Assembly (NCBI GenBank): GCA_030619925.1
Contig: JAUXAL010000022.1
Coordinates: forward strand, 1-50,388
Direction of reading: 5' to 3'
From: Phycisphaerae bacterium
GTDB taxonomy: Bacteria; Planctomycetota; Phycisphaerae; Sedimentisphaerales; Anaerobacaceae
DNA length: 50,388 nucleotides
The notes beneath the pieces were generated by a model. It was not told where the DNA came from. It ran no database searches and worked only from the letters and a program-made list of their open reading frames with translations. Shown piece after piece: positions 41,314 to 45,927 of this stretch. The position numbers and the translations under genes are program-made. Each line of letters begins with the position of its first letter. Position 1 is the stretch's first letter.

Positions 41314-44247
41314 CTATACGCTATGCGCATCACGCACGACGAACACGCATCGCTCGCACAAATCAGGATATTCCGTGTCGGCCCCAACGCTTGGCCAGTA
41401 GTTCCAGCACCGCTGACATTTTTTGAAACTGCTTTTTTCAGCCGTAACTGTCGTCTCGCCGGCAGCTTTTTCCACTTTTACCTCGCTGACGATACAAAGT
41501 GCCGCGAATTGTTCAATGCCGAACTCATTTAGAACCCCGGCAGCTTTATCATCACAGCAGATAGTTACGCACGCTTCCAGATTACTTGCAATCTTTTTCT
41601 CTTGTCTCAAACCTTCCAGAATCCGCAAAACCTCATCACGCAGCCCCATCAGCTTCTGCCACTTGGGCTCCTCACTCTGCCAGTCGATCGATTCATCAAC
41701 TTTCGGCATCAAAGCCAAATGCACGCTCTCTATCTCGTATTGCGTATTGCGTATTGCGTCGGGCGTTTTATCTTTTTCGCGATACGCATCACGCACGACG
41801 CACGACGGTTTCATCGCCGCCCAGACCTCTTCTGCGGTATGCACTAATATAGGTGCCAGCATTCGAACCAGGCAATCTAATATCCTGTGCATTGCTGTTT
41901 GGCCGCTTCGCCGGGACAAACTCTCGGACGCATCGCAGTACATCCTGTCCTTGAGTACATCCATATAGATACTGCTCATCTCGACCGTGCAAAAGTTGTA
42001 TATTAGCGAAAAGACCCTGTGAAAGACGAAGTTCTCATAGGCTTTTGTTACGTCGCCAATCAGCTTTTGCAGCTGCTGCATTGCCCATTTGTCTATCTCG
42101 AACATCTGGTCGTAGGCTATCGCTTCGACCTCAGGGTCGAAATCGTCGATATTGCCGAGCAGGTATCGCAGTGTATTTCTGATTTTCCTGTAGGCCTCCT
42201 GTGTTCGTCCTATTATCTCATCGTTGCACCGGATATCCTCCTGGTAATTGACGCTCGCCACCCACAGCCGCAGAATATCCGAACCGTATTTTGCCACCTC
42301 CTCCTGGGCGTTAACGTAGTTGCCCAGCGACTTCGACTGCTTCATTCCCTTCTCGTCAACGGTAAAGCCGTGCGTCAAAACGCTTTTGAATGGTGCTTTG
42401 CCCGTTGCTCCAAGCCCCGGCAGAAGTGACAGTTGAAACCATCCGCGATGCTGGTCCGACCCTTCTGAATACAAATCAACCGGAATAGGCCACCCCGCCT
42501 CTTTCTCGCACACGCTGTGCCAACTGCATCCCGACTCAAACCACACATCGAAGATATTCTCTTCCTTTTGCAGCTCGTCGAGTTCAAAGCCCTCCGGCAG
42601 TTCAAACCCCTCACCCAGAATCTCACGAGCCGAATCGGTAAACCAGCTGTCCGACCCTTTTTCTCCGATATGTTTCGCCACAGCCAGCACCGATTCCTTC
42701 GTCAACAAACTCTCTCCTTTCGCATTCGTAAAAACGGGAAGTGGCAACCCCCAACTCCTTTGCCTGCTGATGCACCAGTCCGGCCGCGATTCCAACATCC
42801 CCGCGATTCGTTTTTCGCCCCACGCCGGAATCCATTGTACCTTCTTGACGCTCTCCAGCGCCAGATTACGCAGACTCTTACCTACATCAGGCAGCTCTTT
42901 ATCGACACTGATAAACCACTGCTCCGTCGCCCTGAAGATTACCGGCCCTTTGCTCCGCCAGCAGTGCGGATAGCTGTGCGTGATTTCGCCCTTGGCAAAG
43001 AGCAGCCCTCTTTTCTCCAAGTCGCTGTTGACAACCCCATCGACCTCCAGCACGTTTTGTCCGGCCAGCCAGTTCGGCACCGTCTTGTCGTACCGCCCAT
43101 CGTCCATTACCGGCGAATATATCGCTAGGCCGTTCCTTTGCCCAGACATATAGTCCTCAACACCGTGCCCCGGCGCAGTATGTACAAGTCCGGTTCCGTC
43201 CGCGGTGGTAACATAATCGGCGAGTATGACCATAAAGGCGTCTTTCTCCGTCGGATTATTCTCCACAAACGGATGCTCATACCGCAGTCCTTCCAGGTTC
43301 TTGCCTCTTATTGATTTCTTGCTAACCTTATATTTTCCCTCGTCGAGACCGCCAGCCGCGACCACCGCCTCAATACAGTCTTCCACTACCACCGACACAA
43401 ACTTATCTCCATCCTTTTCGTAAATCAACGCCTTATAGTCCAGATGGGGATGCACCGCTATCGCTAGGTTGGCGGCCAGCGTCCACGGCGTCGTAGTCCA
43501 TATCATAAAAGAAACCTTCGCATCCTCGGCCTGGCCCTGCTCGACCAATCCAAGCTCGATTAGCTTGCCGACGCTCTCCTTAGCGACGGGGAAATTCACG
43601 AAGATACTCGGCGACGAAATGTCTTTGTATTCCAGCTCGGCCTCGGCAAGGGCCGTCTCGCAGCCTATCGACCAGTGAATCGGCTTGAGTTGTTTATAGA
43701 CCAGCCCCTTGCCGACTAATTCGGCGAATACCTCCAGAATCCCCGCCTCATACCCCGGCTTGAACGTCAGATATGGATTATCGAAATCGCCGAACACACC
43801 CAGCTCCTGAAACTGCCTGCTCTGTACTTTGACATATTTGCTCGCATATTTTTTGCAATCTCGTCGGATTTCGAGCTTGCTCATCTGCTGTACCTTATCT
43901 CCGAGGTCTGTAACCACTTTCGACTCGATAGGCAGGCCGTGGCAGTCCCAGCCCGGAATATAAGGCGCATCAAAGCCCGCCATTGTCTTGTACTTGACGA
44001 CAAGGTCCTTGAGCACCTTGTCTATGACGGTCCCCATGTGGATATCGCCGTTGGCGTAGGGCGGGCCATCGTGCAGTATATACAATGGCGCTCCCTTGCG
44101 TTTTTTCCTGATTTGGCCGTAGATATCGTCTTTTGCCCATTTCTTTCGCATCTGCGGCTCACGCTGGGTAAGATTGGCCTTCATAGAAAAGCCGGTCTTC
44201 GGCAGGCACAAAGTATCTCGATACACTTTTTCCTTCTTATCCGACAT
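41314..44247 (-). CDS. ileS: Isoleucyl-tRNA synthetase
   Basis: This 977-residue class Ia synthetase charges tRNA-Ile. HIGH-type HDGPPYANGDIHMGT is near 65; the editing domain includes TTPWTLAANLAIAVHP and GTGLVHTAPGHGVEDY; the KMSKS loop reads GMKQSKSLGN; a zinc ribbon CQRCW...CERC closes the protein. HMGT and KQSKS deviate from HIGH and KMSKS. Two palindromic repeats are in frame: residues ~814-838 (CVVRDAYREKDK...) and the C-terminus (VVRDAHSV, stop). The leader contains an isoleucine-rich attenuator peptide and terminator. Expression is likely tuned to isoleucyl-tRNA supply. Confidence 0.96.
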   Translation of the reverse strand: MSDKKEKVYRDTLCLPKTGFSMKANLTQREPQMRKKWAKDDIYGQIRKKRKGAPLYILHDGPPYANGDIHMGTVIDKVLKDLVVKYKTMAGFDAPYIPGWDCHGLPIESKVVTDLGDKVQQMSKLEIRRDCKKYASKYVKVQSRQFQELGVFGDFDNPYLTFKPGYEAGILEVFAELVGKGLVYKQLKPIHWSIGCETALAEAELEYKDISSPSIFVNFPVAKESVGKLIELGLVEQGQAEDAKVSFMIWTTTPWTLAANLAIAVHPHLDYKALIYEKDGDKFVSVVVEDCIEAVVAAGGLDEGKYKVSKKSIRGKNLEGLRYEHPFVENNPTEKDAFMVILADYVTTADGTGLVHTAPGHGVEDYMSGQRNGLAIYSPVMDDGRYDKTVPNWLAGQNVLEVDGVVNSDLEKRGLLFAKGEITHSYPHCWRSKGPVIFRATEQWFISVDKELPDVGKSLRNLALESVKKVQWIPAWGEKRIAGMLESRPDWCISRQRSWGLPLPVFTNAKGESLLTKESVLAVAKHIGEKGSDSWFTDSAREILGEGFELPEGFELDELQKEENIFDVWFESGCSWHSVCEKEAGWPIPVDLYSEGSDQHRGWFQLSLLPGLGATGKAPFKSVLTHGFTVDEKGMKQSKSLGNYVNAQEEVAKYGSDILRLWVASVNYQEDIRCNDEIIGRTQEAYRKIRNTLRYLLGNIDDFDPEVEAIAYDQMFEIDKWAMQQLQKLIGDVTKAYENFVFHRVFSLIYNFCTVEMSSIYMDVLKDRMYCDASESLSRRSGQTAMHRILDCLVRMLAPILVHTAEEVWAAMKPSCVVRDAYREKDKTPDAIRNTQYEIESVHLALMPKVDESIDWQSEEPKWQKLMGLRDEVLRILEGLRQEKKIASNLEACVTICCDDKAAGVLNEFGIEQFAALCIVSEVKVEKAAGETTVTAEKSSFKKCQRCWNYWPSVGADTEYPDLCERCVFVVRDAHSV
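41733..41808. repeat. In-frame palindromic repeat inside ileS
   Basis: On the minus strand CGTGCGTGATGCGTATCGCG is followed by a spacer and three ACGCAATACG-type units ending ACGAGAT. It adds about 25 residues to the tRNA-binding region. Near-identical motifs occur at the ileS 3' end (~41306-41340) and inside polA (48441-48507). Confidence 0.7.
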
Positions 44248-44335
44248 CTAACAAATCCTTAAAAAGTCTAAAAAAATCAAACGCTATATGCTAAGTGTTC
44301 TGACCATCATTGTCAACATCACCTCACCGTCCTAA

Positions 44336-44397
44336 ATCTGTGCCCATCTGTAATAATCTGTGAAATCCGTGGTTCCAATCTGTGAAATCTGTGTAAT
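44336..44397. repeat. AATCTGTGAAATC repeat between attenuator and ileS
   Basis: Several degenerate copies of AATCTGTGAAATCYGTG, related to 8742-8763. It lies between the terminator and the ileS start and does not contribute to the attenuator structures. Confidence 0.6.
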
Positions 44398-44436
44398 AAA
44401 AAAGCCTTCCGGAGTTCGCTGCTCTGGAAGGCTTTT
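44398..44436 (-). terminator. Attenuator terminator upstream of ileS
   Basis: On the minus strand AAAAGCCTTCC (44436-44426... with GAG extension) pairs with GGAAGGCTTTT (44410-44400) to form an 11-bp stem plus GAG/CTC above one mismatch, with six T's ending at 44398. It lies 150 bases upstream of the ileS ATG, inside its own transcript, with no other minus-strand gene upstream to end. The 5' arm can pair instead with region 2 near the leader stop, so termination is conditional. Confidence 0.88.
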
Positions 44437-44467
44437 AATACGCGTAATATAGCTTTCTCAGGGCAGC
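44418..44467 (-). promoter_or_regulatory. Antiterminator of the ileS attenuator
   Basis: Region 2 (44467-44451, GCTGCCCTGAGAAAGCT, containing the leader stop) can pair with region 3 (44433-44418, AGCCTTCCAGAGCAGC). Blocks of 5, 3, 3 and 3 Watson-Crick pairs give 14 pairs with two mismatches and one bulge. Region 3 is also the 5' half of the terminator, so the two structures exclude each other. A ribosome stalled on the Ile codons leaves region 2 free; one at the stop covers it. Confidence 0.8.
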
Positions 44468-44520
44468 TTGAGCTTCTCCGCAATAATTATGATAATCGCA
44501 ATGTTTGAAATAATAATCAT
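44458..44520 (-). CDS. Isoleucine-rich attenuator leader peptide of ileS
   Basis: This 20-codon ORF encodes MIIISNIAIIIIIAEKLKLP, with nine isoleucines, seven of them ATT, including a run of five (codons 9-13). It starts about 27 bases after the predicted transcription start, followed by the mutually exclusive antiterminator and terminator and then ileS. No strong ribosome-binding site is seen (GGGTTGTGA). The peptide senses charged tRNA-Ile by ribosome stalling; the role is inferred from architecture. Confidence 0.9.
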   Translation of the reverse strand: MIIISNIAIIIIIAEKLKLP

Positions 44521-44553
44521 AAATTCACAACCCAATAAACTATTCACTAATTC

Positions 44554-44582
44554 ACTTTAGTCTATTACTCGGCCAATGTCAA
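44554..44582 (-). promoter_or_regulatory. Promoter of the ileS leader
   Basis: On the minus strand, TTGACA (44582-44577), 17 bases, TAAAGT (44559-44554). The predicted start near 44547 gives a leader transcript of about 150 bases to the attenuator. The same TTGACA-17-TAAAGT pattern precedes polA. Confidence 0.72.
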
Positions 44583-44658
44583 GGCCAAGTTAAAAAAATC
44601 TTTGCAGCCAACTAAACAGGAATCTGTTAAAATACCTTTGTTTGAAAGGCCAAAAAAA

Positions 44659-45927
44659 ATGGGGACTAAAACAAAGCCAAAAATCTGGCTTATGGTGCTA
44701 ATATTTTTGCTGCTGATGGCCCTAATCCTGCTTGAGCCGGACCTGGGCACCGTCATGCTGATGATGCCGATTTTGTTTACAATGCTCTTTGTAGCCGGCG
44801 TAAAGGTTAAGCATTTGCTGATTATAGTGCTTATGGCGCCAATATTTTTGCTGCTGATGGTCCTAATCCTGGTTGAGCCGGACCTGGGCACTGTGATGCT
44901 GATGATGCCGATTTTGTTTACAATGCTCTTTGTAGCCGGCGTAAAGGTTAAGCATTTGCTGATTATATTGCTTATGGCGCTTGCGGTAAGTCCGCTGCTG
45001 TGGCACAAGTGGCACAAGACGAAACCTTATCAGCGAACCAGAATAAGTAGCACTCCGCGTGCAAATAAACGTCCTGGCGTTCCCAGTCCAAATCAGCGAA
45101 CCAGAATAAGTAGCACTCCGCGTGCAGATAAACATCCTCCTGCGGTTCCCAGTCCAATCAGCAACAATGAGTACGAATTTGGCGTGAAAAGACCCTTGGC
45201 TCGCCCAGCATGGTCAAAGAAGGAATTTTGTGATATGGTTCGCGATCCCGTTCAGTTCCAACGGATCCTTTTGGATAAGAAGAATCGATTATTGTTTAGG
45301 GGCAAAGGCGGATTTCTCAATCGCGGGGTGTGTTGGTGGCATTCGCGTCTGACCCGCTCTGCAACATACCTGACGGTTTACCGGCCCGATTTGCCCAAGC
45401 CGACAAAAAAACAAGTTTTGAAGATTTTCGATGCTTACTTTCACAATAACCGGGTGGTCGAAATTCCTGGGTATGAGAACTTGCGGGAGTTTTCCCGTGA
45501 CTGGGAGGATCTTCTTCTGAAAAAACTGGAAGATTGGCAACTGGTGGACGGCATATTCGGCTTTGCAGGGCTACGGGGCCTTGCTGGTAAGACTGAAGTT
45601 TTCCCTGAAGAGCTTAAAAACAAAATGGATAATCTTTTTAAACAAGTTAGGGTTGAAAACGAAATTGTCTATCAGAAGCTTCAACAACCTGGAATTAATG
45701 CTCATTCATGGCTTGTTTTCGATATGAAGAAAACCTCTGACGGCTATGTTTTGAGGACCACCAACAGCAGGTCTTTACGCACGAAAGAGGCCCGCTACAA
45801 GATAGGTGATCAGTACCTTCGACAACGTTTCTTCGTTACGCCCCAAACCTTTGTCCCTTACACCGAGTTCGAGAATGAGTTGAAGAAAATCCGAGCGGCA
45901 CAAGAGAGATATTGCCGTTCAAATTAG
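44659..45927 (+). CDS. Chimera: duplicated RodA/FtsW fragment plus papain-like domain
   Basis: This 422-residue protein begins with two 47-residue copies of a SEDS (RodA/FtsW) segment (LLEPDLGTVMLMMPILFTML, then VAGVKVKHLLII), each from a 141-bp tandem DNA repeat. YQRTRI, as in RodA, follows and is itself duplicated (QRTRISSTPRA, 21 codons apart). The remaining ~240 residues form another domain with a possible Cys-His-Asn triad: Cys225 in GVCWWHSRL, His349 in NAHSWLVFD and Asn369 in TTNSRS. A peptidoglycan-linked or membrane-anchored cysteine hydrolase is plausible but unproven. ATG 44659 is chosen because AAAGG lies 8 bases upstream. Confidence 0.72.
   Translation: MGTKTKPKIWLMVLIFLLLMALILLEPDLGTVMLMMPILFTMLFVAGVKVKHLLIIVLMAPIFLLLMVLILVEPDLGTVMLMMPILFTMLFVAGVKVKHLLIILLMALAVSPLLWHKWHKTKPYQRTRISSTPRANKRPGVPSPNQRTRISSTPRADKHPPAVPSPISNNEYEFGVKRPLARPAWSKKEFCDMVRDPVQFQRILLDKKNRLLFRGKGGFLNRGVCWWHSRLTRSATYLTVYRPDLPKPTKKQVLKIFDAYFHNNRVVEIPGYENLREFSRDWEDLLLKKLEDWQLVDGIFGFAGLRGLAGKTEVFPEELKNKMDNLFKQVRVENEIVYQKLQQPGINAHSWLVFDMKKTSDGYVLRTTNSRSLRTKEARYKIGDQYLRQRFFVTPQTFVPYTEFENELKKIRAAQERYCRSN
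44699..44980 (+). repeat. 141-bp tandem duplication within the RodA-like N-terminus
   Basis: Copy 1 is ~44699-44839 and copy 2 ~44840-44980; they differ at about a dozen bases. The unit keeps the reading frame (47 codons). Homologous blocks begin CTGATGGCCCTAATCCTG and end GCGTAAAGGTTAAGCATTTG. Confidence 0.85.
45031..45159 (+). repeat. 63-bp tandem duplication in the linker
   Basis: CAGCGAACCAGAATAAGTAG starts at 45031 and 45094, 63 bases (21 codons) apart; copy 2 has one extra codon. It encodes QRTRISSTPRA(N/D)K twice. Confidence 0.8.

Follow-up and report, generated by a model that had tools for sequence, protein, structure and literature searches.

The ileS gene of this Phycisphaerae bacterium, which encodes isoleucyl-tRNA synthetase, is very probably adjusted by a ribosome-mediated transcription attenuator that acts in cis and senses how much Ile-tRNA(Ile) is available. 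The element lies on the minus strand of the window, as we call the whole 50,388-nucleotide stretch of DNA analysed here, and appears to be one member of a family of attenuators with the same architecture in this bacterial order, Sedimentisphaerales, a family that is not limited to ileS.

The leader upstream of ileS and its occurrence among relatives

The element (Table 1) consists of a short leader ORF with clustered Ile codons upstream of ileS, a rho-independent terminator between this ORF and the gene, and a predicted antiterminator that uses the 5′ arm of the terminator, so that the two structures are mutually exclusive. In RNA duplex computation, region 2 of the leader pairs with region 3 through 14 base pairs with an energy of −19.8 kcal/mol. 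The leader end CUG CCC UGA itself belongs to the antiterminator arm. The last Ile codon starts 24 nt ahead of the stop codon, and 210 nt separate the leader stop from ileS. Every part that a preliminary description of this DNA had named was recovered: the upstream promoter P1 on the minus strand, the leader ORF of 20 codons, nine of them Ile and five of these in a run, the terminator with six T's, the 14-bp alternative pairing, and the position just upstream of isoleucyl-tRNA synthetase. That description had overlooked a second promoter, P2, which is located between the terminator and ileS.

Table 1. Coordinates of the ileS leader locus in the window
Feature	Position	Strand	Details and basis
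Upstream promoter P1	44554–44582	−	TTGACA 44582–44577, 17 nt, TAAAGT 44559–44554; read directly; scan score 10.5
Leader ORF	44458–44520	−	MIIISNIAIIIIIAEKLKLP, 20 codons, 9 Ile; ATG 44520, TGA 44460–44458; homologous leaders in relatives
Five-Ile run within leader	44482–44496	−	ATT ATC ATA ATT ATT; read directly
GGAG, Shine-Dalgarno-like, within leader	44476–44479	−	19 nt before stop codon; tetramer excess over codon shuffles
Region 2, putative antiterminator 5′ arm	44451–44467	−	leader 3′ end and stop region; duplex energy; covariation
Region 3	44418–44433	−	terminator 5′ arm and loop, also pairing with region 2; duplex energy; covariation
Rho-independent terminator hairpin	44398–44436	−	arms 44436–44422 and 44414–44400, six T 44403–44398; covariation
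Downstream promoter P2	44288–44316	−	TTGACA 44316–44311, 17 nt, TAGCAT 44293–44288; scan and recurrence in relatives
ileS, isoleucyl-tRNA synthetase	41314–44247	−	977 aa; TIGR00392, 901 bits, cut-off 621

Two further features were seen around the element. A divergent ORF of 441 aa (window 44602–45927, plus strand) starts 20 nt upstream of P1 and contains an internally duplicated segment with EPDLGTVMLMMPILFTMLFVAGVKVKHLL, and in the stretch from the terminator to P2 (window 44333–44393), inspection by eye found short repeats of the CACAGATT type.

Taken as a single sequence, the leader gives only a mild signal. A series of four ATH triplets appears three times in the window, each time in the leader region (twice, with overlap, on the leader strand and once antisense), and this count was matched by 7 of 100 shuffles. 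Folding of the leader (156 nt), a check suggested in the preliminary description, likewise found it mildly unusual, but at a z of only −1.7 it was left unused as evidence. The case rests on conservation in relatives, which shows that the element is not a product of chance.

Indeed, the Ile codons, the terminator and the alternative stem are all kept in relatives, and the stems covary, which is the outcome that the preliminary description had named as a check. The element was found upstream of ileS in 43 of 89 distinct ileS upstream regions from relatives and the window; 12 of 128 loci had been skipped in collecting these regions for lack of a usable ileS start. In 26 of the 89 regions, an Ile-run leader and, downstream of it, the common module are present within about 700 nt. 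L057 and L059 were added to these by eye because their runs contain only four or three Ile, and L074 and L030, which reached the Ile threshold without the module, were excluded. A covariance model built from these 26 elements, R1, added 17 more, mostly farther upstream of ileS with DNA for another gene between. The scores showed a clean gap, with 49 matches of at least 62 bits and the next at 35.7, in a search of 90 sources in which some loci are present twice from two collections. Searching the remaining ileS loci added no further element; among the 46 regions without one, the upstream DNA available was shorter than 600 nt in five and no more than 700–1,500 nt in many others.

Presence of the element varies with the identity of ileS to that of the window: 17 of 23 loci at 75% or more, 20 of 32 at 70–75%, 6 of 33 at 60–70% and 0 of 1 below. 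Of the six element-free loci among those 23 closest, one had less than 600 nt upstream. On the ileS tree, built from 81 of the 89 loci, the elements cluster, though in a patchy way, with 19 changes against a shuffled mean of 27.3, and none of 500 shuffles gave as low a number. A second model, R2, holds only the last four codons, the stop and the terminator and is thus blind to the Ile run; it matched in 93 of 162 genomes of the order. In a phylum-wide sample searched with strict filters, R1 matched in 4 of 392 genomes, all from the window's own order. The genome of the window itself contains no second element, the best matches elsewhere in it scoring 19.5 bits (R1) and 20.9 bits (R2).

Leader codons and downstream genes

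We compared leader codons in a set of 104 distinct elements (fetched R2 matches plus ileS loci), later extended to 112 by eight further elements, five with and three without ileS; the figures given for 55 elements rest on the set of 104. L228 and L231 were excluded, as neither has a leader ORF of at least eight codons that stops where expected. Of the 112 elements, 60 had ileS downstream, and for the other 52 none was found. The last 22 codons contain a median of 6 Ile in the ileS-linked leaders and of 1 in the others, and at least four Ile are present in 54 of 60 versus 4 of 52. Three of these four others (L143, L148 and L161) have a full Ile-run leader on a stretch that ends or is masked before ileS becomes visible. 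For the set of 104, the corresponding counts are 49 of 55 and 1 of 49 (Mann–Whitney p 2e-17, relatedness ignored). In L047, the module is kept with 2 Ile and no run. The leader of L171, which is not among the ileS-linked ones, ends in SLGMGMGSTGTKGARMLL and is devoid of Ile.

The spacing of the Ile codons is conserved as well: in 40 of the 55 ileS-linked leaders and in all 8 of the elements added later, the last one starts exactly 24 nt ahead of the stop. Third-base G is rare in the AT_ codons of the ileS-linked leaders, with ATG accounting for 52 of 362 (14%) versus 28% in nearby noncoding DNA, a depletion that points to coding constraint on the leaders. Biased use of ATA was also considered and was rejected, as ATA makes up 65 of 322 Ile codons (20%) in the leaders versus 16% in ileS bodies.

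The same module precedes the gene for aspartate-semialdehyde dehydrogenase (asd) in four elements. In L215, L222 and L225, asd is the first gene and is confirmed by NCBIfam; in L169, it comes after a PhzF gene and is identified from its sequence only. Three of the four asd leaders are Thr-rich, namely those of L169 (KAFTKTTTIKWKWPTP) and of L215 and L225 (VTPTVRTWTTRKWTL), and that of L222 is not. In two more elements, L212 and L177, the module precedes the gene for 2-amino-3,7-dideoxy-D-threo-hept-6-ulosonate synthase (ADH synthase), an enzyme that acts early in an aromatic amino-acid route. Both leaders consist of Phe/Tyr/Trp runs (FYFGYWFWFYYEPTKP and GLFYFWFYFSGRSAP, with the aromatic stretches FYFGYWFWFYY and LFYFWFYF). 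The regulatory codons thus fit the target gene for Ile and ileS, for Thr and asd in three of four cases, and for aromatic residues and ADH synthase in two of two, and this match supports ribosome-mediated attenuation.

A further 25 distinct elements stand before methyltransferase or GNAT genes, as assigned by BLAST to reference proteins, with Pfam support for ten of them. They include L165, L168 (which has a MATE transporter too), L170, L172–L176, L207–L209, L213, L214, L216, L220, L224 and L229. Their leaders show no single-residue run and a median of 2 Ile; 16 of the 25 end in KE, two residues and P, and several contain hydrophobic patches such as IFVC, IIVC or MIVA, which are reminiscent of drug-arrest peptides. 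The 52 others also comprise 18 elements classed as other or unclear, which are weak R2 matches with neither a convincing leader nor a convincing target and may include plain terminators. L204, likewise counted as other, is followed by a methyltransferase near the contig end and could be part of an ileS operon. In NCBIfam, the curated family NF040702 consists of IleRS with an N-acetyltransferase domain, and GNAT-like ORFs adjoin ileS in several relatives; together, these observations hint at a functional link.

Shine-Dalgarno-like tetramers are overrepresented within the leaders. GGAG, AGGA or GAGG occurs in 43 of 55 ileS leaders versus 21 expected from codon shuffles, mostly 18–22 nt before the stop, and in 38 of 49 other leaders versus 19.8 expected, mostly 11–14 nt before the stop. 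Such a tetramer may hold the ribosome near the stop codon as a possible pause site, although this is a guess.

Two exclusive structures and the proposed switch

Covariation was assessed in an alignment of 63 distinct elements (A2). The terminator is paired in 94.5% of cells, compared with 23–73% when it is slid along the alignment, and 10 of its 15 pairs have changed on both sides. For the antiterminator, the values are 84.8%, 29–45% when slid, and 7 of 12 pairs; these figures, like those on arm pairing below, are inflated by the relatedness of the sequences. The number of antiterminator pairs changed on both sides does not exceed that in column shuffles, 163 of 500 of which were as high. The other four covariation measures of the antiterminator were reached by 0 to 8 of 500 column shuffles. 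Across the 63 elements, cognate arms pair better than swapped arms, the observed sum being reached in 0 of 20,000 permutations, and in each of them the margin of region 2 over its shuffled versions exceeds 2 kcal/mol. The last leader codon and the terminator arm occur in the combinations CCC/CAGGG (29), CCC/CAGAG (18), CUC/CAGAG (11) and CUC/CAGGG (2); the choice between CCC and CUC follows the terminator arm only loosely.

When the full leader was folded at equilibrium, the terminator formed in 53–54 of 55 elements in every ribosome state, and no switching was seen. The choice between the two structures must hence be kinetic and be made during transcription. Folding of the leader as it stands before the 3′ arm of the terminator exists does respond to the ribosome. 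With a ribosome on the last Ile codon, the antiterminator was predicted in 42 of 55 elements; with a ribosome at the stop codon, in 0 of 55; and with no ribosome, in 36 of 55. These foldings assume a ribosome footprint of −17 to +14 nt around the A-site codon. The ribosome-free result suggests that there is no dominant 1:2 protector hairpin.

The switch that we propose builds on what can be read in the sequence: the ORF, the conserved Ile codons with their spacing, the two exclusive and covarying pairings, the linkage to ileS and the match between codons and targets. From these parts we infer that P1 and P2 drive transcription, that the leader is translated and that ribosomes stall on it, as well as the size of the effect. 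Transcripts from P1 would begin with the leader ORF. With Ile-tRNA plentiful, the ribosome would pass the Ile codons, reach the UGA and cover region 2; the terminator would then form and the RNA would end near position 44398. With Ile-tRNA scarce, the ribosome would stall on the Ile run, at least 24 nt before the UGA, leaving region 2 (44467–44451) free to pair with the emerging 5′ arm of the terminator, and RNA polymerase would continue into ileS. P2 would supply basal ileS expression that bypasses the switch. The reading as an attenuator given in the preliminary description is upheld by the conserved, covarying parts, and is amended in that ileS has its own promoter P2 and that the family is not restricted to ileS.

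Promoters, alternative explanations and known attenuators

A TTGACA-17-TAnnnT site recurs between the terminator and ileS; in 30 of the 32 short-gap loci it lies 24–44 nt ahead of the ileS start codon. Where the leader stop and ileS are no more than 420 nt apart, P2 scored at least 10 in 24 of 32 loci (shuffles: 2.4%); where the gap is longer, it did so in 16 of 23 elements (shuffles: 1.6%), or in 15 of 22 sites when it is considered that the two elements of L038 share one ileS. The region before the leader, where P1 lies, reached this score in 12 of 55 ileS-linked elements (3.5% in shuffles), and P1 is conserved less well than P2. As ileS has its own promoter downstream of the terminator, the attenuator would control only read-through from P1. 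P2 thus probably provides basal ileS expression, and P1 a switchable, starvation-induced supply. Of the arguments against the element having a role for ileS, P2 is at the same time the strongest.

The leader and terminator might instead constitute a separate gene for a small RNA or small peptide, autonomous or trans-acting, with ileS expressed from P2 alone. This would agree with the better conservation of P2, with a leader stop-to-ileS distance that varies from 122 to more than 1,000 nt across elements, and with the thermodynamic dominance of the terminator. A stand-alone gene, however, would not need a covarying antiterminator, nor would it explain why Ile richness goes with an ileS neighbor and other residues go with other targets. 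Moreover, in 20 of the 25 sister methyltransferase/GNAT elements the first ORF starts 3–60 nt past the matched element, which leaves little room for a promoter, and we regard a separate gene as improbable.

The gap between leader stop and ileS exceeds 420 nt in 23 of 55 elements, and a methyltransferase- or GNAT-like ORF is often found within it. L038 has, as seen by eye, tandem attenuators at 996–1107 and 2008–2122 upstream of a single ileS, and each of the two is followed by a methyltransferase-like ORF of its own. The switch could accordingly serve mainly the methyltransferase/GNAT gene, as a translation-stress or drug-response cassette, with ileS as a passenger or secondary target. The ORFs lying between element and ileS in many relatives, the persistence of P2 in longer-gap elements, the 25 free-standing cassettes with the same module and the existence of NF040702 would all be compatible with such a role. 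Yet in 32 of 55 elements, that of the window included, no more than 420 nt lie between leader stop and ileS, and an Ile run marks the ileS-linked elements specifically and is absent from the free cassettes, so that we consider a switch serving chiefly the cassette genes quite unlikely.

In Gram-positives (Firmicutes), ileS is commonly under T-box control. T-boxes act on the same gene and respond to the same signal, the charging of tRNA-Ile, but they bind tRNA with untranslated RNA, whereas ribosome stalling is proposed here. Actinobacterial ileS T-boxes, of the translational type, are described as well (PMC1262725). A T-box or other tRNA- or metabolite-binding leader in place of a translated one can nonetheless be practically discounted for the window, since the T-box covariance model found no match, no Rfam family reached its gathering score there, and what is conserved is an ORF that varies synonymously and is depleted in ATG. 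The Rfam amino-acid leader families, which include the His, Leu, Thr and Trp leaders, likewise gave no match at the gathering score in the window. An Rfam scan of 18 of the 46 element-free ileS upstream regions found nothing at the gathering score, and hence no T-box is seen replacing the element in those 18.

Transcription attenuators with leader peptides are known from amino-acid operons (trp, his, thr, leu and ilv) and from pheST. The proposed ileS attenuator resembles them in its short ORF rich in the regulated amino acid, in that the position of the ribosome would decide the outcome, and in a terminator 5′ arm common to terminator and antiterminator. In contrast to these classical systems, its target is ileS, its leader carries a pure Ile run, and it occurs in a planctomycete order. 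It further differs in that the 5′ arm of the antiterminator extends over the leader's final codons and its stop codon, in that the predicted ribosome-free folding does not indicate a dominant 1:2 protector hairpin, and in having a second promoter after the terminator. The ermC leader peptide, which senses drugs and acts on translation, offers a possible parallel to the free methyltransferase/GNAT/MATE cassettes that carry this module. Aminoacyl-tRNA synthetase or related genes are under leader-peptide attenuation elsewhere: leuS and trpS in Streptomyces (PMC1262725), and hisS/hisZ in bacilli, with a histidine leader peptide (PMC2965389, where an ermC-type drug-sensing leader peptide is also mentioned). 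The present element is set apart from these by its amino acid and its phylum.

In the open-licence literature searched, we found no described leader-peptide attenuator of ileS and no described leader-peptide attenuation in planctomycetes or Phycisphaerae, in agreement with the preliminary description, which knew of no described Ile-peptide attenuator of planctomycete ileS. Because leader-peptide control of other synthetases is already known, we count as new, as far as searched, only the gene, the phylum, the stop-overlapping module and the family of targets; the mechanism itself is known.

A more speculative view, which we put forward tentatively, is that of a modular attenuator regulon within this order in which a single module is combined with Ile codons and ileS, Thr codons and asd, Phe/Tyr/Trp codons and an aromatic route, and drug- or arrest-type peptides and methyltransferase/GNAT/MATE genes. 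It might then serve a general translation-stress response, with over-supply of ileS guarding against natural IleRS inhibitors.

If the attenuator operates as proposed, ileS would join the genes under leader-peptide attenuation, and this mode of control would be shown in Planctomycetota, for which the literature searched offered no described case. The match of Ile, Thr and aromatic codons to their targets within one RNA module makes the mechanism testable across genes, and the module raises the well-defined question of what the leaders of the methyltransferase/GNAT cassettes sense.
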